A stretch of 41,611 bases of DNA from a virus, in the IMG/VR virus record IMGVR_UViG_3300006790_002240, positions 1 to 41,611 of that record. One strand, 5' to 3'. Of this stretch, positions 5,922-30,524 are shown in pieces. Position 1 is the first letter of the stretch; every line of letters starts with the position of its first letter. The position numbers and the translations under genes are program-made. A model generated the notes under the pieces. That model was not told where the DNA came from and ran no database searches. It saw only the letters and a program-made list of their open reading frames with translations.

Positions 5922-7519
5922 TAAACTTCTCCTTCTACTCTAAACTTGAAACTTTTATTGACACCAACAAATTGATTGTTATTAAAGTGTATAAGTTCAA
6001 TTCTATACATATATCCAGGCTCTAAATATGACATATCAATATCAAAATATGAATTGTTTTCGTCATAAGAAAGTCTAGTATATGAAGAGGCGCTTCCTAC
6101 TGCTTCAGGAGATACTGCAGACCCTGTTCCAAAAGATATTGCTTCCTGGTTGTCTATGACTCTTGTAATTCTATAATACATATTATCAATTATTACATTT
6201 TCTGGATCTGCATCTGCTACAGTGTAGATTGTTGGGCTCCAATTTTTAAGTCTAGAAAAAACTTTAAATCGTGCTTTTTCAGTATTCATATAGGAAGAAC
6301 GCAAATTACTTATATTAAATACATAATCTTGCTCTATCGCTTGACTTGATATACTATAAACTTGGGGCGCCATAGAGCCTGTTTTTACCTGCATTCCAGG
6401 CTGTCCAGAGTCATCTAAGGACCAGACATCATAAATTGTCGTAAAAGGCGTTGAAGCGGCCGTCAGGGCGAAAGAAGCAGAATATATTCCTGTTGAATAG
6501 AGGCCGCCAGTAATTACTGTTGGACTAGAAGAATTAACGTGTTCCGTTGTTGTTACCAAATTCAAAGGATTGCCCGTGGGAGCAGTAGAAGATCCTGAAT
6601 AGATCTGGACAAACACTGTATTGCCGCCAGGTATATTTTTTAATTGTCCATTGACGTAATTGTATAAAAATATTGTATTAAGATTATCTTCTGCTGTCAA
6701 CAAGCTGCTGCTATAATTTATCTTTCCTCTGTCATCTTTTATCGTTGAATCCCATCTTGCTTCAACCAATGGCTTCATAAAGAAAAACTCTGACGACCTT
6801 GCAAAAAACTTTTTCGTATAGTACGATCTTATCGCACCACTTACATTTTGTATTGAGTTATCCACACCAATCCCTGTGGAACTTGAAAAATATGCTTCCT
6901 GGCTACTCGTGAGACGGACGCCCAATCCGTAGTTTTCATATCCTCCGCCAGACTGACCTTTAATCCAATTTTCTACAATATCGGTAATATCAACTTCCAG
7001 ATTTTCAGTTCCTTTCGGCAGTGTTTTAACCTTATTGTAGGCTGTTAAATAATCGCCACCAATATTTTGCCATGAAGTCGATCCAGCTCTTTTAATCCAA
7101 TTCGATCCTATACTATTTTTAGTTTTATCAGCGTAGTTGTCCATATCTAAGCCTAAGCCCTCTTCCCAAGAGGAGCTAATTGGCGAAACAATATATGTTG
7201 CTGCTTTAGGTGTAGTATTGCTATGTTCAGCATTAAAAAGCCTTAAATAGAACTCAACATTTCCAGAGGCTGGAAGTTCTCCAGAAGCTCTATCTGTAAC
7301 AATTGTATCAACAGGAAATTGTACTAGAACTCTTGACAATTCTTGTGTTTTTGCAATTCCAGTTGTGGATCCGGATCTCGTTGTTTGGCCATAAATTGAG
7401 AATACTTCTAAAATATCAGAGGCGCCCATATTTGAGCCTGTTCCTCTTGTTGTCAAATTTTCATTAAAAGCATTTGTGATTGTATTGTCTTTATTAGCTA
7501 TGTATCTTTTAATACCCAT
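5921..7519 (-). CDS. Baseplate-associated structural protein with DNRLRE-like domain
   Basis: This 532-aa protein starts at an ATG that overlaps the stop of the gp6-like gene by one base (TAATG), so translation is probably coupled. Residues about 50-215 are beta-rich and end in EVDITDIVENWIKG followed by ENYGLGVRL. That resembles the closing part of DNRLRE/TGF-propeptide-like jelly-rolls, which end with a V-D-(V/I)-T-D-x-V-x-x-W signature and a G-L-x-(I/V/L)-R strand. The C-terminal half is also beta-rich, with repeated short strands like those of fibre or wedge-periphery proteins. From its position directly after gp6 it could be the functional counterpart of T4 gp7 or gp8, but I see no clear similarity to either. 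The domain call is pattern-based; the structural role rests mainly on context. Confidence 0.75.
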   Translation of the reverse strand: MGIKRYIANKDNTITNAFNENLTTRGTGSNMGASDILEVFSIYGQTTRSGSTTGIAKTQELSRVLVQFPVDTIVTDRASGELPASGNVEFYLRLFNAEHSNTTPKAATYIVSPISSSWEEGLGLDMDNYADKTKNSIGSNWIKRAGSTSWQNIGGDYLTAYNKVKTLPKGTENLEVDITDIVENWIKGQSGGGYENYGLGVRLTSSQEAYFSSSTGIGVDNSIQNVSGAIRSYYTKKFFARSSEFFFMKPLVEARWDSTIKDDRGKINYSSSLLTAEDNLNTIFLYNYVNGQLKNIPGGNTVFVQIYSGSSTAPTGNPLNLVTTTEHVNSSSPTVITGGLYSTGIYSASFALTAASTPFTTIYDVWSLDDSGQPGMQVKTGSMAPQVYSISSQAIEQDYVFNISNLRSSYMNTEKARFKVFSRLKNWSPTIYTVADADPENVIIDNMYYRITRVIDNQEAISFGTGSAVSPEAVGSASSYTRLSYDENNSYFDIDMSYLEPGYMYRIELIHFNNNQFVGVNKSFKFRVEGEV

Positions 7520-9324
7520 TATTTAACTGTACCCTCAAAATCTGAATTTTTGTACTTGAATTCGTATGACGCGTCAAAAGGCATCAATAAATATCTTCTA
7601 TCTGCAGAATAATTTTGTTCTATATCATATGATGCATCGGAATAGTTTGCACCCACCTTTTGAATGATTTGTACACTAAGTGTATCCGCAACTCCAACAA
7701 CAGAATTTAAAACTTTAGTAATCCTAGTGACACTCAAGGGCTCTCCAATATCTGGCTTCATTTCGAATAAATCTGCCAATGCATTTTGGCATCTCTGTAA
7801 AACAACAGATTTAGTAACAGTATTTTCCCCCAAGACTTCAAAAATAATTCCTAGATTAACGATTCTAGCATCTAAAATATCAACAGAATCATTAATCATT
7901 CTATGCCTATTAATCCAAAATTTTAAATTTTGTTTCAAAGTTTCATTAGCTTGTGTTAATTTGCCATTACGATCTTTAGCCAAAACATACAAATTTAAAT
8001 TTCTTGTAAATGAATTATTGTCTCTGACTACTGCACATCTAGAAATGCTTCCAAATTGCTCTGGCATTGAGTAAACCATTGTCTTATAATCTTGCGCTGT
8101 AACAGCTCTATTTTGGCTATAAAATGATCCATAGGCGCGCTGTTTGACTTCTTCTACTGTAACGTCTAAATTATCGCCTACAATAGGCTCTTCATTGACG
8201 CATTCTAGACTTGTATTAACTGCTGTCAATAATGTATCGTCTAAATTATGTCTGTCTGTGAATACAACTTTTGCATTAACAATTTCAGAGATAGTCCCAA
8301 CTGGTGCATTAAGGAGATCTCCGGTTATTTGTCGATATATAATAGTTAAGGTCGTATTTGAAGGCGCAACTCCTAATTTATCACTACTGATTAGGTTTGA
8401 TGGATCGAATGTTTGTTCAGAAATAAAATCTCTACCGTGTAAATTTAAAACAGTCTTGTTTGGCTCGGCTATTGGGTCAGTCTTTATTTCTGCCTCGCTT
8501 CCATGGCCAAATTGTAAATATACACTATTTGCGTCTCTTTCAACAACAAAACGTCGTGGAACGGAAATCGGTTTTATTATTTGTGGGGCTAATCCAGATG
8601 ATGTAATGTCAGGATTCTTTATTTCTTTATAAACCACATCTTGTGAAAGATAATCTACTTCAAAATATTGATTTCCATTTGAATCATAAACTGAAACAAT
8701 TTCTGCAATTGAGCGACCACCAGGAACTTCAACCTTAAGAAATTTCTGAAATTGGCCTATCTCTATCTCTTGAATATTTAATTTGCCAGAAATTACTTTT
8801 CCTGATTGCTTGACGGCATATGTTAGTGGTAAGCCAGTGGTATTATCTACTGTTGCAACAACAATCTCATCACTATTTTGAAAATTTATATCTTCCGCCA
8901 ATGTAAAAATACTGCCGCCGGGCGTTCCAACTAAAGTACCTCTTTTAACCAAAGGAAGATAACGAGTATCTGGGCCATTAGCTGTTCCTTGGGCCGGCAC
9001 CAAGGCAAAGAAAGATACATCACCGTGAGAAGTAGGTACTCCATTGTAATTATAGCCCATTTGCTTGGCAATTTTGGTAACGTTATCAAACTCTAGGGCT
9101 GTCTGCAAGAAACTTTCGTTTGCCTGATAATCTAAATAAAAGGATAACATATCTCCGACATATGCAACCATATCAATCATCAAAGATCCAAATGAAGCTT
9201 CATTAAAATCTTTGAAAGAATTTGGATAATATCTTTTTACAAATGTTGTAATTTCATTCCGAATAGAGGAAAAATCACGGGCTGTATAATCGATTGCTAA
9301 TTGTTCTGTTTTTTTTACCGCCAC
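7519..9324 (-). CDS. 6: Baseplate wedge protein, gp6/baseplate J-like
   Basis: This 601-aa protein is close to the length of T4 gp6 (about 660 aa). Its N-terminus carries the conserved start of the family: DYTARDFSSIRNEI, then NEASFGSLMIDMVAYVGDML and a YQANESFLQTA segment. The central part contains the Baseplate_J-like region, including AVTAQDYKTMVYSMPEQFGSI around residues 405-425. In T4, gp6 dimers form the ring that ties the wedges together around the hub and drive baseplate rearrangement at sheath contraction. The start is GTG at 9324 with a GAGGT ribosome site 5 nt upstream. The gene lies 42 nt after the gp25-like gene and overlaps the next structural gene by one base, the usual wedge-operon order. 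Confidence 0.93.
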   Translation of the reverse strand: MAVKKTEQLAIDYTARDFSSIRNEITTFVKRYYPNSFKDFNEASFGSLMIDMVAYVGDMLSFYLDYQANESFLQTALEFDNVTKIAKQMGYNYNGVPTSHGDVSFFALVPAQGTANGPDTRYLPLVKRGTLVGTPGGSIFTLAEDINFQNSDEIVVATVDNTTGLPLTYAVKQSGKVISGKLNIQEIEIGQFQKFLKVEVPGGRSIAEIVSVYDSNGNQYFEVDYLSQDVVYKEIKNPDITSSGLAPQIIKPISVPRRFVVERDANSVYLQFGHGSEAEIKTDPIAEPNKTVLNLHGRDFISEQTFDPSNLISSDKLGVAPSNTTLTIIYRQITGDLLNAPVGTISEIVNAKVVFTDRHNLDDTLLTAVNTSLECVNEEPIVGDNLDVTVEEVKQRAYGSFYSQNRAVTAQDYKTMVYSMPEQFGSISRCAVVRDNNSFTRNLNLYVLAKDRNGKLTQANETLKQNLKFWINRHRMINDSVDILDARIVNLGIIFEVLGENTVTKSVVLQRCQNALADLFEMKPDIGEPLSVTRITKVLNSVVGVADTLSVQIIQKVGANYSDASYDIEQNYSADRRYLLMPFDASYEFKYKNSDFEGTVK

Positions 9325-9366: not shown

Positions 9367-9738
9367 TTATAATTCTAATAGTAAAATATCTTTCTCACTA
9401 ATGCTTGGAACATTATATGTTAGTGAAACACTTAATAAATTTAGAAATTCATTTTTAAAAAATTCTATTTTTTCTATTTTTACAAAAGGCATATATTGAT
9501 TTACCTGACTGTATATGCGGGCTTCAATTTTTTCTTCTGTTTGTGGCATCATCTGTTCAAACAAGAACCTTCGCAAACCGACACCAAAATCAATATCCAT
9601 TATTCGCTCACCGGGAGAAGTTAAAATTATATGAGTTAGATTTTGTTGAATTTCCTCTGCAACGGTCTTAACTAATCCGAAGCCGGCACCGTCAATATCA
9701 TTTGGCGCTAATGGTAATTTTGGTCCTATTCCTTGCAT
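9367..9738 (-). CDS. 25: Baseplate wedge protein, gp25-like
   Basis: This 123-aa protein matches the size of T4 gp25 (132 aa) and the GPW_gp25 family. The signature is visible: a VAEEIQQNLTHIILTSPGER segment, then DIDFGVGLRRFLFEQ, where the EER-like part of the fold packs, and a C-terminal beta-strand region. In contractile systems gp25 is the core wedge protein that initiates the sheath at the baseplate; its old label 'lysozyme' is not supported in the family. It sits between the 3071-aa giant gene and gp6. The upstream gap of about 40 nt is very AT-rich (runs of AATAAAT) and holds a GGAG 9-10 nt before the ATG. Confidence 0.93.
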   Translation of the reverse strand: MQGIGPKLPLAPNDIDGAGFGLVKTVAEEIQQNLTHIILTSPGERIMDIDFGVGLRRFLFEQMMPQTEEKIEARIYSQVNQYMPFVKIEKIEFFKNEFLNLLSVSLTYNVPSISEKDILLLEL

Positions 9739-9779: not shown

Positions 9780-12700
9780 TTATTCTTGCTCTGCTTGATC
9801 AAAAACATCTTTATTGATCCAATCTTGTTGTGGACTTTGTGGATCTGGGCTTTGTCCAGCTTTAAAACCTTCTGTTCCTGGCTCACAACTATAAGATCCC
9901 ATTTGATCAATTGGAATATTATCTCCAACTACTATATCTGGGTTGTTAATTTGATTATACGTGCTAAACGGCTCAACATAGCCAGTAGCCAAATAAGTCA
10001 TACCTAGGCCGGTGATGGGATATCGAATATCGCCAAAAGGCCAAAATAATCTAATAAATTCATTATATTCTTCTTGAGCTTCCTCTAATTCTTCTGGTAA
10101 AACACCTAAATTTTGCAATCCTTGGATTGTTGGAGGTGTTATGCCAAATGGAGCTATAGGAAACAGAGGTACTGGCTTTACACTAAACATAATCTTGGTG
10201 AATAATTCTAGTTCACTAGCACCAGTTTGCTTTTGTATTTCAAAAGCTTTTGCCCATGCAGGATCTGTCAAGCTTACTAAATATCTCATAATAAATCTAG
10301 GAGTAAGCTTCTGGAAATATGAAACAATTGGATTATCGGATTTGCTAGCGCTTAATTTATCAAGCTCTTCTTTAAACTTTGCTGGGGCGCCGCCTTGTTC
10401 AGTTAGTTCACTTTCTATGAATGATTTGTTCTGTGGCTCTTCTGATACATTTATCAAATTAACACTTGCTTGTTTTGATGCTTTGAAAATAGTATTTTCC
10501 GCCATTTCCGGCTTAGGAAAATTAATAACGTGCATCAATGCCATTGTTTTTAACACTTTATCAGGAAAAATATAATTTTGCACTAAATTTGAGACTTTCT
10601 TTTCAGAGTCACCCAATAATTTATTTGTCATATATTCATCTGCTGACAGGTTACTATTGGGCCCATTTGCTATGTAAATCTTATGTGCTATAAAAGATCT
10701 TTTGTCGTTGCCAAAAAATAGATTTTCAATTTGACCAGTGTTGTCTTGCTTGTCCACATACCAGTCTAAGATATCTCTTATTTTTAAGTCTTTTGTGCCT
10801 GCCAAAGTTAATTCAACTGGTTTTCCGATAGGTATAGAATATATTCTCTTAATATTCGCCTCTTTTTCAAGAGTGTATTTTGATTTTTCAGGATTGCCAA
10901 TAGAATTACCAGCTAGTGTCTTCTTTTGTTCATCAGTAGCTGTTTCGAAAACTAATTCCGCAGTCCTATATTTTCTTTCGCTAAAGCATTTTTGTGTTAA
11001 TTCATCGTTTCCTATTTGTATTAAGCTATCCCCAAGCATACCAGCGAATGAACCATTTAGAGTTCCAGAATCATCAGCAATGTCTTTTGTTTCATCTGTT
11101 GTGTCTAAAATATAGCTACGATCTACAAAATCTTGTTTTATAAATTTTTTATTCTTTAGTTTAAATTTTTCATTTTTTGGTGATACAGCCGAGCCACCAG
11201 AAATACTTTTTTCTATTACTTCTAATTGTTCAGCCGTTATGTCTCCATAAGGCCCATCGTCGATAATGTCCATATTATGTGGAAAGACATACACTAAACG
11301 CTGGCCTATCTTAATATCTCTAAAGTAATCTCCTAATTTACTATGTTGTAAGTTACCTAAAAGCTCAAGTTCGGAAAGATAATCCACTGAATCTGTCCAT
11401 CCATCAGGAGTTGGTTTCGTAAATCTATTAGAGAAAAAGTCATTTTCGCTCTCATCGTCTAAATCAAAGTTTTGGCCAACTAAACTATTCAAAATAGCGA
11501 TATCCAAAGCGTTAATATTTACTATAAATCCTTCTTCTTCTATCATAAGATTTACGTAGTCTTTCTTATGTATGTTTTCATAATTTAATGTATTATCTAT
11601 AATGTCAATTGACTCCGGGGAAGATTTGAAAGCCCAATACAAGTCTCCCTCATATTCAGAAGTAAAAGCGTTTGATTTTGATTCATCAAGATCATCTGGA
11701 TCTTGAATTGGGCCCCCATCAGGAGGAATATCATCTTGTAGCGCTTCAATGCTGCCTTTCCAGCCAGTTTCTGATCCTACTGATGGAGTGTCTGCTTGAA
11801 GTTCCCAAGGGGGTCTATTATAGATTGCTCCTCCATCAAATCCAAAATTAAAGCATGCTTTAAAATTTAATGCCTTTTGAAATTGCATCTTGTGAGGAAT
11901 TAATTTCAAATATTTTTGAATTACAAAGCCACCATTTTTTGTAGCATCTCCCAAAGAAGTTAAGTTTGTTCGAATGTCATATTTTAAATCACCGCTATCG
12001 AGGAGATCTCCATCTTCATCTTCCTTTTTCTTGAATTTAGTGGATCCCGGCAGATAAGTAATTTGTATAGTTTCTGATTCTTCTGCCTTCCCTGTATATT
12101 CTTCACTGTCAGACCACTGAGTTTGATAAAACGTAGAATTGTTTTTTTGTAAAATTTTTCTAATCATCATATCATTGCTTTTAACATTTGTAGCAGATAC
12201 AGGACCCAATGTTGGGATATCTAATTCTTTTGTTGTAAGGTTCGCTAACCAATTATCAAGGTTAATTTCAGGAATATTTCCTAATTTTGCTTGTGCAAGA
12301 TAAATTTTTCCTAATGCTTCTTGATCTGCCGGTATCTTAAGCCAGCGCCATGGCAAGAAAGTATCTAAACTATTACCAAGAAAATGAGAATAATCTGTCA
12401 ATTGATATGGCACATCCATATATTCTTCTGTTGCTAAAAATGCATTTTTGACGCTTATTTTTTCTTTAATAGGTGTTTCCAAAGCTTCAGACAATGGTCC
12501 TAGAATCTCATCAATTTGTTTTAATATGACGTAGAGTACTGCTGATTGTTCTACATCAGACAAATATTTTCTTGCTGCTTTTGTTTTCAGTATAAATTTA
12601 ACGTTATAAATACCAGAACTAATATTGTTATATTCATCCGCCATTTCAGATTTTTTATAACTCTTAAACATAAGTTTTTTACCATCAATGCTTACTATTT

Positions 12701-15700
12701 TTCCTTTCGTCAATTCCTTGACTAAGATGTCAAAACAAACATTTACGATTTTGGTATAGTAATCACCGACAAATTCATTAGCACTTTTTTCTATTGATTT
12801 TGCTAGAATATGAGCAAAAATAATATTATTTTTCAAAAGTTCCGACAACTCAAATGATGCAAAAATCAACAAACCACGTATAATATTTTCAAGTATAACA
12901 ACCCTCATAAAGGCTAAAATAGAAGTTACCTTAATCGATTTTGATAAAACATTTGGATCGTTAGGGCTGTCTAAGTTTGTTTTACATAATTGATCTTTAT
13001 ATGCTTCATTCGCAGACTGCTTTAAGGAGTTGGAATTTAATATATCACTCAATGTTGCTGCAGCGAGAGCCCCATCCTGTGGGAAACAAATCTTTGCCAA
13101 AAACTGCTGCGACGTTGTATTGTTAGAGAGATTTAGCTTGTCAAAAATATCAATATTGAAAATCTCTGAGTCGGCAATATTTTTTAACATTCGATCAACT
13201 GCAGAAGCAAAAACTAAATCATAAATCTTTAAGCATGATTTTTCAAACTTTTCTCTACGGCCAGTGAGAGGAGAAATTACTTGGACATCTTCTGGCATTG
13301 GTACCACTAGATCATCAACTCCGTCGCCGTCAGTATCGAGCCCAAATGTACTCAACAGAATATTTGTTTGAAGGTTTTTATCAGAAAAAGAAAGATCTTG
13401 CAAAGAAGTCGATAATACTTTGCTTAAAAGATATTGTTGTAAACTTAAACGCTTTGCAGTATCAATATCATCAATATTTAATCCAGATTCATTTTTTACA
13501 TTTTTTGTTTCTGCTGCTCGGCTAAAATCTTCAATATATTCAAGCCACTCTGTGTTTAATCCAAGTCTAAAATTTAAATCTACATTAACTAATTGAACTT
13601 CAAAAGGTATATTATCTGCGCTATTGGCTGGGGGTGATGTCGGAGTAAAATTACTATTATGATTATATAATCTAAAGTGTATCTGATCCAAAGGTATGTT
13701 CGAATAAATCGATTTTAATTCTTCGCTTGATTTAGGGGCAACCTGTTGAATAAAATCATTTGCTTTTAATTGAATATATTTAGGATAATTAATTTCCACT
13801 AGTTTTGACGTCTCAGGAGTATTTTCCTTTAATTCATTGACCGTAAGTTGGGCTGCTGCTTCTATATAAGGCAACATAACAACATCATTTGTATAAAATA
13901 TATCTTTTTCTAGCGCCCCTTTTGGACTAGGGAATAAATTTAAACTATAGTAATATAATTTGCTCCAATCTGGGCCATATTGTTTTTGTAAATATAGTTG
14001 TAATTCTTGACTAAGACTAGATTTTTCATCATCGTTTAGGCCACCGAATAAATCTGCTCCTTCAGAAAGGATTTGATCAAAATCTTGTTCTTCGGCTGCA
14101 AAGCCTGTTCCCCCAATTGATCCTATATAATCTGGTGGTGAATAAGGAAGATTATCTTTTATGTTTTCAATATAATTGTCTATAACATCCAAGAAGCTCG
14201 GTATTTGATCTTCATCAATACTGAAGCCATCAATAGTTTCATCCCATGCTTCTTGCGGCAACAACCCAGCTGAGTCTTCGCCGAAATTAATATATTGCTC
14301 TTTCAAAAATTGCACAGCGTCTTCTCTATATTTAGAAGTATATACTTTTGCTTGTATATCTACTGGAAGATATGTGGAATAGTTTGCCTCTATTAATTTA
14401 TGATTATCAATCATAGTAAAATGACGTTTTGCTGGTTCGTTGCTGCTAAGTAAAAATTCTGTTTCTGGCTTATAACCATTTAGCATATTTGGAATTATGT
14501 TAATTGGGCTTCGTGAAAGAATATTTGAATTATCTATTTTCAAGCTTGTTTGTAGTTTTTTATTTACAACTCTCTTGTTTATATCATTTCGTGGCCACGA
14601 TTTTCTTGATTGTTTACCAAAATCAACGAGATAAGGTTTCTTACCTTCAAATGCCAATTTGACAGCTGTTGGTCCGTCAGCCGGGAATAAATACGGCTCC
14701 AATGCCTCTTCTGGCACAAAACCTTCTGGCGCGCCATCTGGTTGTTTAGTTTGATTATCTATAATTTCTTCTAGCTCGCTGGTGCTTTTTCTATCTAAAT
14801 GAGGTGGCAAGAGCGCTCTAGAATAAGAACCAGCCCCTAGGCCATTAGTAGTTAAATAATCTCTTCCAAGCTGGGGCTGCCTAGGCAAGTCACCACCTCC
14901 AGGTATATGCTCGACATCCACAAATAATTCTTTTGCACCACGAACTTCCATATCGAATTTTACGGCGACACCATCTACCATTTGGCCAATCACTGAGTCT
15001 GCCATTTGCTCCATATGGGGTGTATTTAAAATACTTTCATTTCCAGTATTACCTACCGCACATAATATGGGAGTGACCTCTGATAAAAGCTCGTCATTCA
15101 ACAAGTCATTTAATGCTTCGAGGCGCCTCTTGTCTCTTTCGGTGTTTCCAGAAATAATTTGTTCACACTCTTCCTTGGAAAAGCCTTTCTTTTCTAATTG
15201 TTGACAATACCATTCATCTTGTAATTTATTTTCACAATAATTTGCAACATTAGACAAATTTTTTGAAAGCTCAATGCAAAAAGAAAGGTCGATAAACATA
15301 CCCAAGCCTTTGAAAAAAGCTTTTATTTTATCAGTATTTGATAATACTATTTTAATATTTTCCAATTCGGAAGTTCGAACAATTTTTAAAACTAATTTAT
15401 AAATTGGACTTTTGGCTGTGCCCAATAGCATAGCGCATACCTCTGAGGGTCTTAGGGCTAATGATAGTTCATCCATTAGTTCTAGCGCCTCACTTGTCAA
15501 TATGGTTGTTGGGATCTCATTCATCGTCTCCAAGATATGACTTATGATATCGATATCAGTTCGAGGATCTCTTAAAAGACGATATATATCAAGTGTGCCT
15601 GGCTTATTTGTTTGCAATCCATCCAGCACTGTAGGAGGCATCAACACTGATCTCGTTGCAAATCTTTGCTCATCTGTTAGATCTTCTGCAAAAGTAGAGT

Positions 15701-18700
15701 CTACACCTAGATTATCATTTGCATTATTTTCTTTACTGCCTATGTTGGATAATATAGCACCCAAGTCAATATCTGCACAAGTATTTAAAAATTCAGTCAT
15801 AACAGATTTAAAAAGTGAAGTAATCGTATCAACAAGGGCCGCAGCTGCAGATTCAACTACAACATCAATCTCTAACAATGGATCATCATTATCCATTGGC
15901 AACTCTGCCATTTCAAAAGTTGGTGGGGCTACCGAAATCTTAAATACATCATCAACTTCTGCTTCCAAAGTCTTATCAAATGTTGAAGCTTTTAATTTTG
16001 CTCCTAAATCAAAACCAAGCACTTGCGCATCAAGCTCAGCAGAAATTTCTGTGCCCGACATCTCGTCTAGTAATTCTAATACACAATCTTCAATGCCCAT
16101 TTCTTTTAAGATGCCCATCAATCTATTTGTTAATTCTTTATCTAGGGCATCTTTTTTGTCTTTTGCAGCGGAAGAATCAGATACTAAATTTTTCACTGCA
16201 TTTGTAGGTTGTTCTTCAAACTCTGTTGTTAGGTTGTCTATTTCACTAAAATCTTCTACAATCAATTCCTGTTCTTGTACAAAAGATCCTAAATCTTCGC
16301 TATTTACATTAATCCCAGTTTCTAATCCTGCTAGCTCAATTTCAGAATATATTACTTTATTTTCATAGAAATCATACTCCGATTCCAATAATTCTATTCT
16401 AGAAGCCAATTCAGGGCTTATATTTTCTACTTGACATTTTACAGCTAAATCTGCTTGGAATTTACTATTGAAGAGTAGTTTTTTAAGATCAACATATCCC
16501 AAAGACTTAAGAGTTTGTTTTCTAGCTAATAAATTAATTTCTGCTTGTGGAATAAATTTCATAACGCATGATTGAGCCGCAAAAACAAATTCTTCAAAAT
16601 TAACTTTGTTTAAGACAGTATCATACATCATCTCTGAATTTGATATTCTTTGCAGTGCCTCAAAATCGTCTAGAACCGAATCGTTATTTGGTATTTGAAC
16701 ACTTCTTCTTTCCTCATATTTTTTTTCTTTCAATACAGGATCGATAAGCTTTTCGTTTTCTTTTTGAACCTCTGCTTTTGTTTTATAAGTCTTGGCTTCC
16801 GTTGACAAAAGATCTTCTTCTTTAGGCGTCTTAGGTTGTGTTGGGAATTGTTTTTTCTTTGATGCATCAGAAGCTTCATTAAGAACAATTTCAGGAGGAG
16901 GATAAGTAAACTTTACTACCATATCTAAGCCATGGTATTTCTTTTTATTTATCGCATCTTTTATCTCCGGGTAGTAGCGTAGATATGCGTTAATATTTGG
17001 CTTAGAAAATGGCTCTTCTTTGCCAAAACAATTAATACCTTTTCTTAGATATTTTGATATTATCTGGCCATCTTCTTTTCTCTGCAATATGGCAGTTTTT
17101 AATCTATATTCTTGATCAAATCCAATTGCTAATACATCTCGTTTTTTTAGATCTAGTTTTTCATCGTTTAACTTTAATAGATCCTGTAATTTTGGCAAAA
17201 CTTGATCAAATATTTTTACATCTTCATCGAAATTAGGTTCCGGAACTAATGCATATCCGTCTTTTGCAGCTCGGGTGGCGCGTCGCTTAAAATCCTTGCC
17301 AATAATCTTCTTTAGTCTCTTTATTGTTGTTTTTAATCTATTTGTCTTTATAATCCACCAGAAACCTACATCTTGAACCGCAAGACCTTCTGTTTTTTCA
17401 GTAAGTTTTTCTAATCTTGGGACGGCTGCTCTAAATTCATTAATTTCGAGAGATGGATGTTCAAAATATGTACGCGGAATAGCTACAAGATATTTTATTA
17501 ATTTATCTTGTCTATCAGATGACCATCTTTCTTTAATGGTTGCAAATAGACCATTGTTCAATTTGAGCAACTTTCCTACAAACGATACTGGCTGCTGATT
17601 AGAAGTGATCGCGGTCTCAGGAGGCAAAGTTATATTTGACTTTTTGCCATAATATGATAAAAGCTGTGCCGCGCCTTTAAAAATTATATCATAATCAGAT
17701 GCGCTGCTATCAGTTTTGTATTCTAGCGCAATATTATAGGTGTTCTCTTTTTCATCTAGATATGGTTCGTATTCATCTAGATTTGTCCAATCTGGAGCGA
17801 TATAGCTTTCATTTGGCTCTGGTACTTCAATTTTAGGTAATTCCAAATCAAAAGAAAAATCTGTGTCCGGCTGTATTGTTACGTAAGACCTCATCTCATT
17901 AATGTAAGATGAATATCTCTTCAAAACTCTAGAATCAACAAATCCAACTAGGCCAATATTATTAACAAAATCTTTTGAGTTCGGAGCATCTAAAATTCTT
18001 ACTTTAGAAAAAATTGCATTTTTTCCAAAACCCTCCGCCAATACTTCAACTTTGGTATGATGTGATAATTGAGCCAATACTCTGGAGGCTGCTCCTTTAA
18101 ACTCTGTTTGATCAAGATTAAAAGTCTTTTCTTCTACTTGCTGAAAATTTTCAACTTGTTTTTGTATAAAGATGGTATCGTATCCATCTTTTAGTTTTGA
18201 ATTCGTAACCGAAGACTTTACATACCCTTCTCTTAAGAGCAGTTTTTGATTTTGATTTTTGTTCGGATCCGAAGAAATATCAACAAAGTGAGTGCCTATT
18301 ATTGTACCATCTGGAGGATCTTCATAACCAGGGTTTAAAAGTAATGCAGTTCCAGATGGAATTACGTTTTCAACAGTTGATGTTGTGACTGTTGTATAGG
18401 GTTCTTTTGAGAGAGCCTCAATTATATTAATTCTAGTTTGCCCTATTTCAAACACGTGTGGATATTTTGAAATAAATGCAACATAATCTGCCTCGTTGAC
18501 TACCCTCTTGTCATTATTGATAGAAATTTCAATTTTTCTATTTTTAAACTCTGGGTTCTCTTCTTCGCCCTCGGGTGTTTCTATTGTTGCCGGCAATAAA
18601 GTTCCTTCAGATACTCCCTTAAAAGAATTGCCAAGCACGCTTTCTAGTACATTTTCAACATTGAAAGGGGGTCCAAATTCAACAATTTGTCTAACTAAAT

Positions 18701-18995
18701 AATAGATTGTTAAAAAGCCATTATTTTTGATACTACTTGGAGCATTGGGATCTTCAATTAAATTTTTACCATTAAAATCATATAACGTTTCTTCTAATGT
18801 TTTATCTTCAAAATCGCCGGTAATATAGGCATTTTCATATTGAGTTAAATTGACACCTTCGAGCTGTGTTGGTAATACAGTAAGCCGCTCAAGATCCGCA
18901 GTTCTTCCTAATGCTTCAAGTCTCTCAAGATAGTTTGCTGCTTTTGGGGCATCAACTAATTTTAAATCATCTAATGTTATTAATTTTTCTGGCAT
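9780..18995 (-). CDS. Giant virion-associated protein (3071 aa), function unknown
   Basis: A single uninterrupted 9.2-kb frame encodes 3071 aa, acidic overall and without a signal peptide. I do not recognise a family over its length. What can be seen: two N-terminal beta-rich stretches (around residues 200-370) with an SH3-like look; a Lys/Glu-rich helical part around residues 640-780; a helical, partly hydrophobic stretch around 1040-1100; a calcium-loop-like LDTDGDGVDD near residue 1890; and a strongly hydrophobic helical stretch around residues 2015-2070. The C-terminus is Gln/Pro-rich. Position between a spike gene and gp25 makes a baseplate hub or tail-associated role likely. A tape-measure role is possible by length, but the long beta-rich portions argue against a simple coiled ruler. 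The ATG at 18995 has no clear ribosome-binding site and follows the spike gene stop by 8 nt. Confidence 0.8.
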   Translation of the reverse strand: MPEKLITLDDLKLVDAPKAANYLERLEALGRTADLERLTVLPTQLEGVNLTQYENAYITGDFEDKTLEETLYDFNGKNLIEDPNAPSSIKNNGFLTIYYLVRQIVEFGPPFNVENVLESVLGNSFKGVSEGTLLPATIETPEGEEENPEFKNRKIEISINNDKRVVNEADYVAFISKYPHVFEIGQTRINIIEALSKEPYTTVTTSTVENVIPSGTALLLNPGYEDPPDGTIIGTHFVDISSDPNKNQNQKLLLREGYVKSSVTNSKLKDGYDTIFIQKQVENFQQVEEKTFNLDQTEFKGAASRVLAQLSHHTKVEVLAEGFGKNAIFSKVRILDAPNSKDFVNNIGLVGFVDSRVLKRYSSYINEMRSYVTIQPDTDFSFDLELPKIEVPEPNESYIAPDWTNLDEYEPYLDEKENTYNIALEYKTDSSASDYDIIFKGAAQLLSYYGKKSNITLPPETAITSNQQPVSFVGKLLKLNNGLFATIKERWSSDRQDKLIKYLVAIPRTYFEHPSLEINEFRAAVPRLEKLTEKTEGLAVQDVGFWWIIKTNRLKTTIKRLKKIIGKDFKRRATRAAKDGYALVPEPNFDEDVKIFDQVLPKLQDLLKLNDEKLDLKKRDVLAIGFDQEYRLKTAILQRKEDGQIISKYLRKGINCFGKEEPFSKPNINAYLRYYPEIKDAINKKKYHGLDMVVKFTYPPPEIVLNEASDASKKKQFPTQPKTPKEEDLLSTEAKTYKTKAEVQKENEKLIDPVLKEKKYEERRSVQIPNNDSVLDDFEALQRISNSEMMYDTVLNKVNFEEFVFAAQSCVMKFIPQAEINLLARKQTLKSLGYVDLKKLLFNSKFQADLAVKCQVENISPELASRIELLESEYDFYENKVIYSEIELAGLETGINVNSEDLGSFVQEQELIVEDFSEIDNLTTEFEEQPTNAVKNLVSDSSAAKDKKDALDKELTNRLMGILKEMGIEDCVLELLDEMSGTEISAELDAQVLGFDLGAKLKASTFDKTLEAEVDDVFKISVAPPTFEMAELPMDNDDPLLEIDVVVESAAAALVDTITSLFKSVMTEFLNTCADIDLGAILSNIGSKENNANDNLGVDSTFAEDLTDEQRFATRSVLMPPTVLDGLQTNKPGTLDIYRLLRDPRTDIDIISHILETMNEIPTTILTSEALELMDELSLALRPSEVCAMLLGTAKSPIYKLVLKIVRTSELENIKIVLSNTDKIKAFFKGLGMFIDLSFCIELSKNLSNVANYCENKLQDEWYCQQLEKKGFSKEECEQIISGNTERDKRRLEALNDLLNDELLSEVTPILCAVGNTGNESILNTPHMEQMADSVIGQMVDGVAVKFDMEVRGAKELFVDVEHIPGGGDLPRQPQLGRDYLTTNGLGAGSYSRALLPPHLDRKSTSELEEIIDNQTKQPDGAPEGFVPEEALEPYLFPADGPTAVKLAFEGKKPYLVDFGKQSRKSWPRNDINKRVVNKKLQTSLKIDNSNILSRSPINIIPNMLNGYKPETEFLLSSNEPAKRHFTMIDNHKLIEANYSTYLPVDIQAKVYTSKYREDAVQFLKEQYINFGEDSAGLLPQEAWDETIDGFSIDEDQIPSFLDVIDNYIENIKDNLPYSPPDYIGSIGGTGFAAEEQDFDQILSEGADLFGGLNDDEKSSLSQELQLYLQKQYGPDWSKLYYYSLNLFPSPKGALEKDIFYTNDVVMLPYIEAAAQLTVNELKENTPETSKLVEINYPKYIQLKANDFIQQVAPKSSEELKSIYSNIPLDQIHFRLYNHNSNFTPTSPPANSADNIPFEVQLVNVDLNFRLGLNTEWLEYIEDFSRAAETKNVKNESGLNIDDIDTAKRLSLQQYLLSKVLSTSLQDLSFSDKNLQTNILLSTFGLDTDGDGVDDLVVPMPEDVQVISPLTGRREKFEKSCLKIYDLVFASAVDRMLKNIADSEIFNIDIFDKLNLSNNTTSQQFLAKICFPQDGALAAATLSDILNSNSLKQSANEAYKDQLCKTNLDSPNDPNVLSKSIKVTSILAFMRVVILENIIRGLLIFASFELSELLKNNIIFAHILAKSIEKSANEFVGDYYTKIVNVCFDILVKELTKGKIVSIDGKKLMFKSYKKSEMADEYNNISSGIYNVKFILKTKAARKYLSDVEQSAVLYVILKQIDEILGPLSEALETPIKEKISVKNAFLATEEYMDVPYQLTDYSHFLGNSLDTFLPWRWLKIPADQEALGKIYLAQAKLGNIPEINLDNWLANLTTKELDIPTLGPVSATNVKSNDMMIRKILQKNNSTFYQTQWSDSEEYTGKAEESETIQITYLPGSTKFKKKEDEDGDLLDSGDLKYDIRTNLTSLGDATKNGGFVIQKYLKLIPHKMQFQKALNFKACFNFGFDGGAIYNRPPWELQADTPSVGSETGWKGSIEALQDDIPPDGGPIQDPDDLDESKSNAFTSEYEGDLYWAFKSSPESIDIIDNTLNYENIHKKDYVNLMIEEEGFIVNINALDIAILNSLVGQNFDLDDESENDFFSNRFTKPTPDGWTDSVDYLSELELLGNLQHSKLGDYFRDIKIGQRLVYVFPHNMDIIDDGPYGDITAEQLEVIEKSISGGSAVSPKNEKFKLKNKKFIKQDFVDRSYILDTTDETKDIADDSGTLNGSFAGMLGDSLIQIGNDELTQKCFSERKYRTAELVFETATDEQKKTLAGNSIGNPEKSKYTLEKEANIKRIYSIPIGKPVELTLAGTKDLKIRDILDWYVDKQDNTGQIENLFFGNDKRSFIAHKIYIANGPNSNLSADEYMTNKLLGDSEKKVSNLVQNYIFPDKVLKTMALMHVINFPKPEMAENTIFKASKQASVNLINVSEEPQNKSFIESELTEQGGAPAKFKEELDKLSASKSDNPIVSYFQKLTPRFIMRYLVSLTDPAWAKAFEIQKQTGASELELFTKIMFSVKPVPLFPIAPFGITPPTIQGLQNLGVLPEELEEAQEEYNEFIRLFWPFGDIRYPITGLGMTYLATGYVEPFSTYNQINNPDIVVGDNIPIDQMGSYSCEPGTEGFKAGQSPDPQSPQQDWINKDVFDQAEQE

Positions 18996-19003: not shown

Positions 19004-19927
19004 TTAATTTGTGTTGTTATTTCTAGAGTTTATATACTTTTTGGCGCCTTTATTTAAGTAATTATTACTTAATTTTTTTAAATTCGATTTATGTCTTGCT
19101 AAAGAAGCCGCCGTATTTCCAAACTGCTTGTTTGCAACACTTGGCCCAACGAACGGTAAGACGTCAATATCAGGACTGGTTACTATTGCCCCGAAAGGAC
19201 TTCGATGATAATGATTCATAACACCTTCGTTAAATTGAAGCTGATAGTTAATATAATTAATTAATGTTCCATCTAAAACAGATATCTTATGCACAAGTTG
19301 CTCTAGGAAATCTGCTAAATTATCTCCCTTTACTAAAGGCTGCATATCTGCATCATCATTTCCGGCTATTAAATCAATTCCGGAAGCAGATTTAACAAGT
19401 CCACCTTGTGAGTTTTTTGGATCGGTAGCAGTTACTAATTTTATACCTTGTCGCGAAATAATACGAATATCATCTGCTTTTATGGCAATTGCAGATTTAG
19501 CTACAGAATTGCCTAATTTACCTTCAGCCAATTTAAAATAGCTATCAATATCGGCCTTTTGAGATATATAGATCCTGGCAGCGTCTCTTCTTAGATCCGG
19601 ATCTGCATAAAGCTTTTCGCCTTTTTTGTTGACATCTTTCGCATCTGCACCCATTCGGCCGACGCATATATCAATCATTCCTGCTTGTGTATCGCCTTTG
19701 CCTCCATATCCACTAGTACGATCGCCTGGGCGGTCGCGACCCATAATAATAAAAGTATTGTTTTTGCCTTCTCTGACAATTTCACAATCAGCTTTTATAT
19801 ATGAAGGAATTGGTTCTACCAGATCCGAATTATTTATTCCGCGGCCTTTAGTAGTGCCAGCCGTTTTTTCAAGAAATTTTTTTTTAAAAAGCGATAAAAA
19901 ATTTAATTGTATTGCAAATTTAGCCAT
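19004..19927 (-). CDS. Putative baseplate central spike, gp5 C-terminal-like
   Basis: This 307-aa protein contains short alternating polar/hydrophobic strands, including ARIYISQKADIDSYFKL and AIAIKADDIRIISRQGIKLV (residues about 115-180). These resemble the repeats of intertwined trimeric beta-helix spikes such as the C-terminal part of T4 gp5. The C-terminal third is helical and then Ser/Asn/Lys-rich, and a histidine-containing NHYHRSPFG motif follows the helix. In T4 the lysozyme and the spike are one protein; here the OB-fold/hydrolase part is the preceding 957-aa gene and the spike is separate. The start codon overlaps the stop of that gene (TAATG), so the two are probably made together. 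The spike assignment is inferred from repeat pattern and position; no metal-binding apex motif was identified. Confidence 0.7.
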   Translation of the reverse strand: MAKFAIQLNFLSLFKKKFLEKTAGTTKGRGINNSDLVEPIPSYIKADCEIVREGKNNTFIIMGRDRPGDRTSGYGGKGDTQAGMIDICVGRMGADAKDVNKKGEKLYADPDLRRDAARIYISQKADIDSYFKLAEGKLGNSVAKSAIAIKADDIRIISRQGIKLVTATDPKNSQGGLVKSASGIDLIAGNDDADMQPLVKGDNLADFLEQLVHKISVLDGTLINYINYQLQFNEGVMNHYHRSPFGAIVTSPDIDVLPFVGPSVANKQFGNTAASLARHKSNLKKLSNNYLNKGAKKYINSRNNNTN

Positions 19928-22800
19928 TATTCAAAAGGACTTCCCGACCATATTTTGTCATTAGTTAAGCGATTAGTTTTAGTACTTTTTTCAACTACTT
20001 TTACAGCATAATTACCATCTGTTACGAAATCTTCCCCAGTATACCATGCTTTTCTGGTTAGTTGAACTTCCCAGTGCCAGGCTTCTCCTTTATAAGGAGT
20101 AATCCCAAACTTATGTGCATTTTTCATCATCCAAATATGTAACTTTGTTTTTCTTTGTGCACTATTTGTTTTTGAAACCGGCTGTACAATAGTGCCAGTT
20201 GAATCTTTATAATATATATCAAACGCACATCCTGTTTCGTGCGGACTATTAAAAGCTCTATAAGTACGTCCAGCCCTAACACTCCCATATTCGTCAATTA
20301 AATATAAATCGAATAATGCTTTAATCGAAATGTTTGGATCTCTTTCTAGTGCTTTTTTGACTGATGGATAATTTTTTCCTCTTCTACCTCGAAGCCACTT
20401 ATATCTTAATTCGCCGGGTTCTCTAATCCCAGAAGCCAGATGTATTTTTGGCCTTCCGGTTTCCTTTACCCAAGCTTGATTCATTAATTCAATTCTTTTA
20501 GCTACTAGCGTATGAACTTGGCGGCCGCGATATTTTACCAGCAATTCAGGTTTTAAAAATTTTTGAATAAAAGCACCATTTCTTACACGATTTTCCTCAT
20601 ATGGTGTCGCAGGCAACAACTCTACAATAGTATTATCAAATTTATATTCTTTTATATGTTCAAAGCCAATTGATGATGGCTGAAAGCCGCCTTGATTTCT
20701 ACCCGAACTTTTATCACAACCGGGTGTGGCGGAATTTGATAAGTTAGGAGATACAACTGCTGGGGGTAGCGGCGAGGGTGAGGCTGCTTTAGCTAGAATT
20801 CCTAATTTTTTTTCGTATTTCCGCAATGGAGTTTCAGCATATTTTAATTCTTGCTTTTTGATATTAAGCAATTTTTTTACTTTTTCTGCTTCTGCATGCG
20901 CTGGTGTTCCCTTTACAGCAGTACTTGTTAATCCTTCTATTTGAAGTTCCAAATCCTCGACTTCTTTTCTTTTCATCTCGTATATTTGTCTATAAGCATC
21001 TAATTTTTTCTGCTGCATTGTTGACAACTTAGGAGTTTGTTTGACATTTTTTGCTTCAGAAGCCTCATCAGATTGTTTGATACTATCTGCAGTTACGTCG
21101 GCTGCAGTTTGAACAAAAGTACTCCACTCTGATGTTTTTACATTTTCTGTAACTTTCTCGTCAATTGCTTTTTTTTCTGCTGCTGATGCATCCGAAATTT
21201 CTTTTTCGGCTGTGCTTAAAGGAGGATTGGTTGATCCAGGATTTTTCTTAAATCTCTCAAGCTCATTTGCTATATTTTTTAGTGTTACAAATCGACCATG
21301 AGGCCATACGGCGTAACGAACACGAGAGGTTTCCCAGCTCCAAAAACCTAATGCTTTCTTGTAGTCAACACGCTTTTGTGCTTCATCACCTAATAGCCAG
21401 CCGGTTCTTCTGATAATCTCTTCCGGTGGCTTAGGAGACTTAGCATATTGAGGATACATTGTTTCATATCCACCTCCATACGTACTTCCCATAGCTAATA
21501 TATTTTTAAAGCCTGCATCTTTATATGCTTGCAGACCTATAATCATACCTCTTGGTTTGTATTTAGCCTTTGCCCGATAAGACTGGGGGATTACAAAGTC
21601 TGCACCATTCATAGATGATAAGGCCAATTTTTTAAACCATATTGGCATTTCATAGCTCGAAACACCACAACACAAACCATATTTTCTGGCTTGTTGCATA
21701 CTTTTGTCCATCCAATTCTTTGTTAGACGCGCAATAGTCTCTTTGCTGTCTTTTCCCATCATATCAGCTTCCGGATCATAGATGACCCCTAGACATCCAG
21801 TTTCATATGCCAAAGGAAAGATAAAAGATATCATTTCATCAAGTTTTCTAAGATTAGGATAAGCCCAAAGATAGACTCTGATGCCCGCATTATGAAAATC
21901 TTTGACAAATTGTCTCAATTTTTCTTTATCCGCTACTGTATCTTTCTTTCCCTTGGCATTGACGCTTGGCCATCGTTGCCACAGGCCCAAAACAGCAACC
22001 CAATCTAGGCCGGCTTCAACTGCTATCTTAACAGGGTATCTCTTTCCTCTAGACGGTGTTAGGTTGGTAAACAAGCCTTTACCTACAGGCAACGTACCTC
22101 TTTCTTTTTCTAAATTAACAGGTGTTCGAATGTTCTGTAAATCGGGAAAATTCCCAACAATGTCGACATTAATCTTGCTGAGAGATAAACCTTTAGCAGA
22201 CGAGGCGCCAAATATCGCATTTCCACAAGCATCAAAACTTGAGCGTGCAGTCTGTGTTGATATTTGCTCCTCTATATTATTGATTTGCCCTTCTTTGAGA
22301 CCTCCAAGTAAAACTCCTTGATCTAGATTTTCAATATCCTCGAAAGTAACCCAAACAACTTCTCCAGGCTTTGGTTCATTAACACCAGTATTTTGTGCTG
22401 TGAACGTTGGAAACTTATTGATGGCTGAATGATCTGCGCCTACTCCGTCTTCAGTACCTAAACTTTTTGGAGTTGGCAAGATAGAGCCATGTATCTCAGG
22501 AATCATTGCTTTAATCGCTACTAAGCGTATTTCTTCTTCAGATCCAAATAGTTGTGCTAATTGATCTGCCCAAGACATTGCCGCTTCTTTATCTTCACCG
22601 ATAGGATTCTCAACGCGAAGAACGATTGCTTTAAAGCGCGTAACTCCCTTGGTACTATCGTTTTTAAAACGATCTCTAAGTTCTTTTCTTAAGATTTCAA
22701 GCGGATCAGAGTTTGTAGTATAGATTGGCTGTGATTTCTTCTTCCATAAAGGATTTAAAGTACCATACGAGTATCCCAATTCGGTAAGAATATCGGCCAT
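19927..22800 (-). CDS. Baseplate hub/tail lysin: gp5-like OB fold, TIM-barrel hydrolase-like domain, M15 peptidase
   Basis: The 957-aa protein reads as four parts. Residues about 50-170 look like the gp5-type OB fold, ending in GEVVWVTFEDIENLDQGVLL. Residues about 235-520 look like a TIM barrel of glycoside-hydrolase type: AVEAGLDWVAVLGLW, GIRVYLWAYPNL, GVIYDPEADM with acidic candidates, then VIPQSY and LGFWSWE. Residues about 595-670 are a charged coiled coil. Residues about 760-930 match peptidase M15/VanY, with zinc motifs SPHETGCAFD and EAWHWE; such enzymes cut peptidoglycan stem peptides. The likely job is local wall digestion during tail penetration. Position before the spike gene and the gp25/gp6 block supports a hub role. 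The barrel's activity is uncertain; the M15 assignment is strong. Confidence 0.88.
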   Translation of the reverse strand: MADILTELGYSYGTLNPLWKKKSQPIYTTNSDPLEILRKELRDRFKNDSTKGVTRFKAIVLRVENPIGEDKEAAMSWADQLAQLFGSEEEIRLVAIKAMIPEIHGSILPTPKSLGTEDGVGADHSAINKFPTFTAQNTGVNEPKPGEVVWVTFEDIENLDQGVLLGGLKEGQINNIEEQISTQTARSSFDACGNAIFGASSAKGLSLSKINVDIVGNFPDLQNIRTPVNLEKERGTLPVGKGLFTNLTPSRGKRYPVKIAVEAGLDWVAVLGLWQRWPSVNAKGKKDTVADKEKLRQFVKDFHNAGIRVYLWAYPNLRKLDEMISFIFPLAYETGCLGVIYDPEADMMGKDSKETIARLTKNWMDKSMQQARKYGLCCGVSSYEMPIWFKKLALSSMNGADFVIPQSYRAKAKYKPRGMIIGLQAYKDAGFKNILAMGSTYGGGYETMYPQYAKSPKPPEEIIRRTGWLLGDEAQKRVDYKKALGFWSWETSRVRYAVWPHGRFVTLKNIANELERFKKNPGSTNPPLSTAEKEISDASAAEKKAIDEKVTENVKTSEWSTFVQTAADVTADSIKQSDEASEAKNVKQTPKLSTMQQKKLDAYRQIYEMKRKEVEDLELQIEGLTSTAVKGTPAHAEAEKVKKLLNIKKQELKYAETPLRKYEKKLGILAKAASPSPLPPAVVSPNLSNSATPGCDKSSGRNQGGFQPSSIGFEHIKEYKFDNTIVELLPATPYEENRVRNGAFIQKFLKPELLVKYRGRQVHTLVAKRIELMNQAWVKETGRPKIHLASGIREPGELRYKWLRGRRGKNYPSVKKALERDPNISIKALFDLYLIDEYGSVRAGRTYRAFNSPHETGCAFDIYYKDSTGTIVQPVSKTNSAQRKTKLHIWMMKNAHKFGITPYKGEAWHWEVQLTRKAWYTGEDFVTDGNYAVKVVEKSTKTNRLTNDKIWSGSPFE

Positions 22801-24653: not shown

Positions 24654-24755
24654 TTAAAATATATTTTTTAATAATTCTGCACATTCCTGCGCAGTACTGT
24701 TTACTGTATCTGTTACACAATTATTTTTTGTTTCTAAAATTATCATTTGCTTCAT
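24654..24755 (-). CDS. Possible 33-aa small protein overlapping the dehydrogenase end
   Basis: A 33-codon frame starts at an ATG inside the 3' end of the nucleotide-sugar dehydrogenase gene (plus-one frame) and ends just before the AGGAG of the next gene. It fills the otherwise empty 79-nt gap. The translation has two Cys and a helix-like C-terminal half ending in CAELLKNIF. No clear ribosome site precedes it, so it may be either translationally coupled or a chance frame. It could also be a remnant of a longer dehydrogenase tail, but no similarity to that tail is visible. Confidence 0.3.
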   Translation of the reverse strand: MKQMIILETKNNCVTDTVNSTAQECAELLKNIF

Positions 24756-25515
24756 TTACTGCATTCAAAACTACAGATTTTACATCTGCTTTTTCAGCAA
24801 TTTTTATCATCGCATTGACATCTTTAGGAAAACACTTTCCTCCATAGCCACGATTATTAGCAAAAACAGCGGTGTGCATACGATTAACGCGAGGGTCATT
24901 AAGCCACAACTCCCTAACCCTGTTCCAATCAGTCCCCAGGGCTTTACATATATCATACATTTCATTGCAAAAAGTTACCTTAGTGGCATAAAAAGTATTA
25001 GCTACATATTTTACCATCTCCGCTGTATTGTGGTCTGTGACCAAATATCTTTTAGTTGGGCCACCTACTTTCATATAAAGATCTAATACTTGAGAACAAT
25101 CAGAGCCATTGCCGCCAAAAATATAATGCGGCATCTCTTTAACATCAGTATCAAACTTATATGGACTCCAATATTTTGATTCGCCGGCGAACTCTGGTGA
25201 GAAAACTATTTTTTTATTATACTTCATCGCCAATGCTTTGGTAGTGCCAACTGCGACAGTAGATTTAATAATTATCAAATCTGTCTCTAATTTTGAAACG
25301 GCATTCTCTACTAAAGAAATATCACAAGATCCGTCAGGCAACATCTCAGTTGGAAGACAAACCACTGCACAATCTGCTTTTTCATTTATTTCTTCTATGG
25401 AATGAGTACAAACTTCCGGATTTAGATCATACGTCATCATATTATAATGATTCTCGAAAAACCCAAACATAGCGTTTCCTACATATCCACGCCCGATGAT
25501 TGCAATTGTTTTCAT
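24721..25515 (-). CDS. Nucleotide-sugar 6-dehydrogenase, short form (Ugd/WbpA type)
   Basis: This 264-aa protein has the NAD-binding start GRGYVGNAM, a KSTVAVGTT segment, FSPEF with Glu108, AEMVKYVANTFYATKVTF with Lys169 and Asn173, and the catalytic cysteine motif GYGGKCFPKD (Cys228). This family oxidises UDP-glucose, UDP-GlcNAc or GDP-mannose to the uronic acid in two NAD-dependent steps. Usual length is 390-440 aa. Here the protein stops about 36 residues after the catalytic Cys, so the C-terminal UDP-binding domain is missing. It directly precedes no other sugar gene in the transcript but follows wbpB, so UDP-GlcNAc is the most sensible substrate (WbpA step). Whether the short form is active alone is unknown. 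An AAGGA site precedes the ATG. Confidence 0.85.
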   Translation of the reverse strand: MKTIAIIGRGYVGNAMFGFFENHYNMMTYDLNPEVCTHSIEEINEKADCAVVCLPTEMLPDGSCDISLVENAVSKLETDLIIIKSTVAVGTTKALAMKYNKKIVFSPEFAGESKYWSPYKFDTDVKEMPHYIFGGNGSDCSQVLDLYMKVGGPTKRYLVTDHNTAEMVKYVANTFYATKVTFCNEMYDICKALGTDWNRVRELWLNDPRVNRMHTAVFANNRGYGGKCFPKDVNAMIKIAEKADVKSVVLNAVNEANDNFRNKK

Positions 25516-25526
25516 ATTCTATCCTT

Positions 25527-26459
25527 TTACAGTTTTTTTAAAATTGGATGCGAGTCTTTTACTACTCCAGTTGGAATATTATACTTCATATTATGAACTA
25601 ATTTAATAGATGTTTTTACATCATCAATATTAAATCCATTTCCTTTTAAAATCTCTTCATAACTTTTTGTATGCAACTCGGTAAATCCAGTACTAAATTC
25701 AAATTCTTTCTCATCGATGCTTAGAGACCGATAAGTTGTTTTTCCTTGCTTTTTTACTTCGATAGGAAGATACTTTGAGTTGCAACTCAAAAGCCATCTA
25801 ACATTGGCATTCTCTAAACGAAGTATCCCAGACCATATATCATTTTTAGCAACGTGTACTTCATTTTTAATTACATCGCCAAAGATCCATGTAAGCATAT
25901 CAAAAAAGTGTATACCTATATTGGTTGGTAATCCGCCGGATTTATTTTTGTCTCCTTTCCAAGAATAATGATACCACAAGCCTCTTGAAGTAAGATAAGT
26001 TAAATCAACATCATATACTTTGCTCTTGTCAACTGTCTGTTTCAGCTCTCTAATTGAATCGTGAAGTCGCAATTGCAAAATATTATTAATCTTCTTGCCA
26101 CTTTCATCCTCTAGTAATTGTAAGTAATCTAGATTTTCAGGATTTAAAACCATTGGTTTTTCACAAATTACATTTACTTCATTTCTTAAAGCTAAGCGAA
26201 CATGTGCATCGTGTAAATAATTCGGAGAACATATACTAATATAATCTAATGCTTTTCCTTTTCTTCTTAGCTTATCTACATGTCTATCAAACCTCTCAAT
26301 CTCCGTAAAGAAAGACGCTTTAGGAAAATATGAGTCGATTATACCTACTGAATCATTAGGATCTAAGGCAGCTTCTAATGTGTTGCCAGTCTCTTTTATT
26401 GCTTTCATATGACGTGGAGCAATATAACCTGCTGCTCCTATTAAACCAAATTTTTTCAT
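25527..26459 (-). CDS. wbpB: UDP-N-acetyl-glucosaminuronate 3-dehydrogenase (WbpB/WlbA type)
   Basis: This 310-aa Gfo/Idh/MocA-family oxidoreductase matches the WlbA/WbpB subgroup in length and motifs. It opens with FGLIGAAGYIAPRHMKAI, a start very characteristic of WlbA, then ICSPNYLHDAHV, the ICEKP motif with Lys101, and GGLPTNIGIHFFDML with Asn180 and His184 in the catalytic positions. WbpB oxidises C3 of UDP-GlcNAc-uronic acid to a 3-keto sugar with tightly bound NAD, which is recycled with 2-oxoglutarate. The WbpE-type aminotransferase that uses this product lies 2 nt upstream, and a dehydrogenase that could make its substrate lies downstream. A GAGGT ribosome site precedes the ATG. Confidence 0.9.
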   Translation of the reverse strand: MKKFGLIGAAGYIAPRHMKAIKETGNTLEAALDPNDSVGIIDSYFPKASFFTEIERFDRHVDKLRRKGKALDYISICSPNYLHDAHVRLALRNEVNVICEKPMVLNPENLDYLQLLEDESGKKINNILQLRLHDSIRELKQTVDKSKVYDVDLTYLTSRGLWYHYSWKGDKNKSGGLPTNIGIHFFDMLTWIFGDVIKNEVHVAKNDIWSGILRLENANVRWLLSCNSKYLPIEVKKQGKTTYRSLSIDEKEFEFSTGFTELHTKSYEEILKGNGFNIDDVKTSIKLVHNMKYNIPTGVVKDSHPILKKL

Positions 26460-26461
26460 TA

Positions 26462-28545: not shown

Positions 28546-28625
28546 TTTGTTTCAACATCTCCTCGAAATTCAACGGTGCACGTTTGTCTTCCATTCGAAA
28601 AAATAGAATTTTGATCGATCTTCAT
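28542..28625 (-). CDS. Possible 27-aa leader-like small ORF
   Basis: A 27-codon frame fills most of the 108-nt gap between a glycosyltransferase gene and the epimerase gene. Its TGA overlaps the epimerase ATG (ATGA), the layout of translational coupling used elsewhere in this operon. The ATG at 28625 has no clear ribosome site. The peptide has no recognised motif. It could couple translation of the epimerase, be the tail of a decayed gene, or be chance. Confidence 0.3.
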   Translation of the reverse strand: MKIDQNSIFSNGRQTCTVEFRGDVETK

Positions 28626-30520: not shown

Positions 30521-30524
30521 AACT

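Follow-up and report, generated by a model that had tools for sequence, protein, structure and literature searches.

The window analysed here, the full 41,611 nucleotides of the viral record IMGVR_UViG_3300006790_002240, carries a baseplate operon on its minus strand, in which a single open reading frame (ORF) of 3071 aa takes up 22% of the whole stretch. The genes concerned are:

7519-9324, minus strand: gp6 baseplate wedge, downstream of gp25, used below as marker gene for a tree (phrog_219, E 1.2e-20)
9367-9738, minus strand: gp25 baseplate wedge, directly downstream of the giant (PF04965, E 3.9e-11; phrog_261, E 1.4e-18)
9780-18995, minus strand: giant ORF, 3071 aa, 346 kDa, pI 4.7, present in all informative giant-clade loci
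19004-19927, minus strand: 307-aa putative needle or spike part, directly upstream of the giant, assigned by position
19927-22800, minus strand: 957-aa putative tail-tip protein with a VanY-like C-terminal end (20.2 bits, cut-off 25)

The giant frame starts with ATG, and the G+C content of the window is 35%, so that a stop-free run this long cannot be chance; the 9.2-kb frame of the preliminary description is borne out. It lies 8 bases from the upstream 307-aa ORF and 41 bases from gp25, and scans for T4-late and sigma-70 promoters gave counts at or below chance. An identical giant (100% identity) occurs in an independent contig, the sole copy in an exact-peptide search of IMG/VR, and two further contigs carry giants at 31-36% identity to the window protein. 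Closer pairs within the family have pN of 0.19-0.38 versus pS of 0.72-0.82, i.e. the giant gene is under strong purifying selection.

The frame had been described as lying between a spike gene and gp25. The gp25 end of this statement is confirmed by PF04965; the spike is a spike by position, by the sub-cut-off VanY-like end of the neighbouring gene and by motifs recognised by eye, with no family match. The 307-aa ORF has a weak profile match to the spikes of the sister group (7% identity, E 0.005), and the 957-aa candidate matched nothing in PHROGs or PDB. The VanY-like peptidase end of the latter contains HETGCAFD...HWE and its middle part resembles, by eye, a glycoside-hydrolase barrel; it is possibly a tail-tip protein carrying two cell-wall enzymes.

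By its size, and by its long and partly lineage-specific insertions, which are often seen in outward-facing parts, the giant could be taken for a tape measure or for a tail-fibre or receptor-binding protein. Yet another gene (673 or 854 aa) fills the tape-measure role by position in the two long contigs G002 and G003, near the tube and sheath genes and beside gp26-like genes. The lectin-like sequence lies instead downstream of gp6, where a second very large ORF (3-5921; 1973 aa in the window) has a laminin-G-like domain (PF13385). The conserved part of the giant is moreover helical to alpha/beta with invariant cysteines, and not repetitive, and we regard a tape measure or fibre as quite improbable. 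The large ORF after gp6 reaches 3355 aa in G003 and 3847 aa in G002, and has no blastp similarity to the large protein VrlC of phage HTVC008M or to the cyanophage giant at the corresponding place.

The window and the long contigs have other features of interest. A sugar-related gene island (24721-33095) adjoins the structural genes; it includes glycosyltransferases (PHROG match) and, by eye, dehydrogenase-, aminotransferase-, epimerase- and acyltransferase-like ORFs, and in G002 and G003 the baseplate genes likewise have such islands on their upstream side. The ORF at 36161-36895 runs on the plus strand, opposite to the surrounding genes; it matches a protease (phrog_9683, E 8e-5) and has a signal like that of lipoproteins. 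In both long contigs, a solitary plus-strand ORF of similar kind adjoins a PhoH-like gene. At 39683-41602, a 639-aa ORF joins a cytidyltransferase-like N-terminus (phrog_395, E 1e-5) to a long acidic tail. Many ORFs of G002 and G003 start with the near-identical motif MKLL(F/M)E(N)WR, perhaps a common targeting or assembly tag.

Comparisons with known proteins gave the giant no name. Nothing above noise was found when the whole protein, its blocks and its small alignment were searched against Pfam, PHROGs and PDB sequences. The weak PDB rows (a haemagglutinin stem, a calcium-channel subunit, an adaptor, ribosomal proteins) had E-values of 0.04 or worse and were discarded as chance or helix-composition matches. 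When five members were compared by tblastn with 50,697 phage records, the only match was one of 36 residues (E 0.2). In profile comparisons by hhalign, and for VrlC by hmmsearch as well, the giants resembled none of the HTVC008M proteins gp5, gp6, gp8, gp25, gp26, gp48, gp53, gp54, VrlC and putative tape measure; the 994-aa protein and the downstream giant proteins of ACG-2014d gave no similarity either. The statement that the protein has no recognisable family therefore holds for sequence, profile and fold searches, none of which gave a significant match of the whole protein to a characterised family.

The T4-type gp53 (PF11246) and gp8 (PF09215) were not found in G002 and G003, while the positive control, ACG-2014d, gave both (gp53 at E 5.7e-12). 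Yet the sister phages without a giant equally lack gp53 and gp8 matches, and hence this absence does not show replacement by the giant. The profile of the gp48 tail cap (PF11091) matched nowhere, ACG-2014d included, i.e. the positive control failed.

The window protein is no one-off, but a conserved member of a large positional family. We searched loci by the neighbouring gp6 (52 loci) and by gp6 alignment (at least 508, 80 kept). Some 60 relatives, 1650-3280 aa long, were found at the giant's position in the viral contigs scanned in this way with gp6. Where gp6 is at least ~41% identical, the gene before gp25 is a giant of this size or its two halves, and no giant-clade locus that extends far enough upstream lacks one or the other immediately ahead of gp25-gp6. 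Most pairs of clusters have little or no blastp similarity; profile-profile alignment reveals collinear homology (cluster A versus B E 5e-15, A versus D E 1e-19). An iterative profile seeded by the window's cluster joined 62 of 65 giants in one family, with E-values that are too favourable since the searched giants were pre-selected by position. As a control, the same profile was run over every ORF of the sister loci and of two contigs (151 and 191 kb); it hit the giants alone (next best E 0.13), with a single copy in each of the two contigs. Judged from profiles and gene order, the giants are one previously unnamed family, located between the tail-tip genes and gp25. A host look-up by genome bins gave mostly short contigs in unrelated bins.

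The window giant shares with this family the position before gp25-gp6 and four collinear blocks with conserved cysteines, always in the same order (aa ~400-905, 1000-1400, 1870-2165 and 2340-3071 in window-protein numbering). Its parts are:

17799-18995, minus strand: N-terminal arm, aa 1-399, confined to the window's sub-cluster apart from a partial match in cluster D
16881-17798, minus strand: first part of block I, aa ~400-705, family-wide, predicted alpha/beta by AlphaFold2 in the relative L015 (residues 1-310, pLDDT ~90)
16281-16880, minus strand: second part of block I, aa ~706-905, predicted helical, conserved C810 (30 of 42)
14796-15998, minus strand: block II, aa ~1000-1400, predicted helical, C1073 (42 of 42) and C1254 (39 of 39)
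12501-13388, minus strand: block III, aa ~1870-2165, predicted helical, C1970 (26 of 26) and C2004 (24 of 28)
13311-13337, minus strand: DTDGDGVDD loop, aa 1887-1895, part of an insertion that the relatives do not share
9783-11978, minus strand: block IV or C-terminal module, aa ~2340-3071, with GxRL..P, DP and PGxxTPxG motifs and C3037 (22 of 26)

The N-terminal arm has no Pfam or PDB profile match. Across clusters, which are 13-17% identical, few columns are near-invariant; several of them are cysteines, and G1318, P2722, D2911 and P2912 are also conserved. Disulfides or metal binding would be the obvious reading of the cysteines. Other traits noticed in the preliminary description fared less well. 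The DTDGDGVDD calcium-loop is real as a sequence, but only the window protein and its identical copy have it; the two closest relatives do not. The SH3-like parts were not confirmed by Pfam or PDB profiles. Hydrophobic helices are neither in excess (one segment versus a mean of 2.7 in shuffled sequences) nor a conserved feature of the family.

AlphaFold2 models were made of L015, a shorter relative chosen because its cluster is better sampled, in two halves. Residues 1-1010 have a mean pLDDT of 70.5; the first 310, at about 90, are predicted to be alpha/beta and the remainder helical. Residues 1010-2110 (pLDDT 61.4) are predicted mainly helical with short strands, the last 210 being of very low confidence. 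Neither half had a Foldseek match in the PDB at E 0.001, the C-terminal model being of low confidence. Within the same scope, the folds proposed earlier for this search (gp27, gp48, gp53, gp54 or tape measure) found no PDB match, and the same goes for the gp5 OB domain. Among predicted viral proteins (BFVD), residues 1-1010 have five matches at E 1e-15 to 2e-5: A0A516MAR9, A0A1B1IUZ9, A0A516M7H3, A0A1B1IUR6 and A0A516LBU8. No name or function is given for these proteins. Hence, the fold of the first half recurs in other viral proteins, none of them characterised.

The history of the giant can be read against that of gp6. The gp6 tree has 77 rows, and a branch with SH-aLRT support of 98 separates the 49 with a giant from the 28 without it; among the 28, L157 and L160 start too near gp25 to show the preceding gene, and L058 and L059 have long branches. 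The giant was gained once on this tree and has been inherited with gp6 as one clade. This co-inheritance and the strict gp25-gp6 synteny support the earlier assignment of the protein to the virion or baseplate region, synteny being the one source from which we infer a place in the virion. One might argue that a non-virion protein merely happens to be located in the operon, as no family names the giant and no proteomics or cryo-EM of a member turned up in the material searched. But throughout a strongly diverged clade it keeps its place among the baseplate genes, as one gene per genome co-inherited with gp6, which makes this extremely unlikely.

Some loci among the 28 have in the giant's place a protein of about 120-195 aa, in certain cases with a helical protein of 484-971 aa ahead of it. 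The latter, unrelated-looking and lying between spike and gp25 (L162:7237-9093, L164:4556-7471, L172:6011-7465), could be a functional counterpart of the giant.

Such long helical proteins at the giant's place in some sister phages might also suggest an ejected or pilot protein travelling through the tail, or a membrane-penetrating factor, as might the very large size, acidity and largely helical predicted blocks of the giant itself. Yet the protein is not enriched in hydrophobic segments, the fold searches gave no match of enzymatic or pore-forming kind, and the strict linkage is to gp25-gp6 and not to capsid or tape-measure genes. We found no evidence for the ejected protein of the preliminary description and hold this role to be very unlikely.

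In five loci (L102, L111, L117, L118 and L171) the giant is encoded by two genes. The first, which L111 and L171 show in full, is about 1670 aa long; the second contains block IV, measures 566-632 aa and has its own start codon. The C-terminal third is thus a separable module. The five loci form a nested clade in the gp6 tree (support 99). Since this clade lies inside the fused one, the two-gene state is a derived fission and does not represent ancestral parts. L116 also looks split but was left out of this count: its relative L114, at 80-88% identity, has the unbroken gene, and a frameshift is the likelier cause.

These loci bear on the proposal that several T4 baseplate proteins (gp7/VrlC, gp48, gp53, gp54, gp27) were fused into the giant and have diverged beyond recognition. 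The location in the baseplate operon, a length close to that of several such proteins combined and the independent gene for the C-terminal third all fit this idea. But from the fission one cannot conclude that T4 genes were fused to make the giant, none of its blocks matches HTVC008M gp5, gp8, gp26, gp48, gp53, gp54 or VrlC, and Foldseek matched no chain of the PDB library, which presumably holds the T4 baseplate. With no positive evidence in its favour, we consider a fusion unlikely.

The new baseplate component is the best fit among the three options first put forward (hub, fusion, ejected protein), the data being compatible with a hub and with a wedge. We think that the giant is probably a structural scaffold of the baseplate, in the inner wedge or hub, of the contractile tail in T4-related phages of one uncultured and mostly marine clade. 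Such a multi-domain scaffold would be made in one gene run with gp25 and gp6, and assembled with both proteins into the baseplate. Its alpha/beta head and helical blocks might be arranged about the wedge of gp6 and gp25 and about the tail tip, bridging the two, and it might do work that T4 divides among smaller wedge and hub proteins. The conserved cysteines would stiffen the chain by forming disulfides or binding metal, the C-terminal third would be an add-on domain able to work as its own polypeptide, and the variable insertions would face outward. The bridging blocks, outward insertions and stabilising cysteines are guesses from anatomy. What speaks against a scaffold is that neither sequence nor fold comparisons tied the giant to any baseplate protein. 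A bolder version, in which a marine T4-like clade builds its baseplate round one disulfide-locked, new-fold chain of ~350 kDa replacing several T4 wedge and hub proteins, is conceivable but doubtful.

Baseplates of contractile tails are thought to have a small conserved core made of gp25, gp6, gp7, the hub and the spike. If a clade has added or substituted a giant family without solved relative, then this core can be rebuilt. The family is also a target for structural biology, since one of its domains is predicted with confidence and has no match among solved structures, and it labels a large clade of uncultured phages whose giant genes current family libraries do not recognise.

Comparisons with known systems put the giant in perspective. 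The closest cultured gp6 (31-33% identity), from Immutovirus (Flavobacterium) and Microcystis phage Mel-JY01, belong to gp25-gp6 pairs as in the window, but only small genes precede gp25 in these phages and their gp6 lie across the supported branch from the giant clade. The operon context of gp7, gp27, gp48, gp53 and gp54 in the T4 baseplate is common to the giant through gp25 and gp6, whereas their folds and profiles do not match it. VrlC (2001 aa in HTVC008M), which appears to replace gp7 in pelagi- and cyanomyophages (PMC7029224), is also very large and also encoded in the gp25-gp6 baseplate operon of T4-like marine phages. It differs in that its gene follows gp6 and gp8 instead of preceding gp25, and it has no profile similarity to any giant cluster tested. 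For the cysteines, phage Milano offers a precedent: its contractile tail is reported to be held together by a network of disulfides (PMC10811340).
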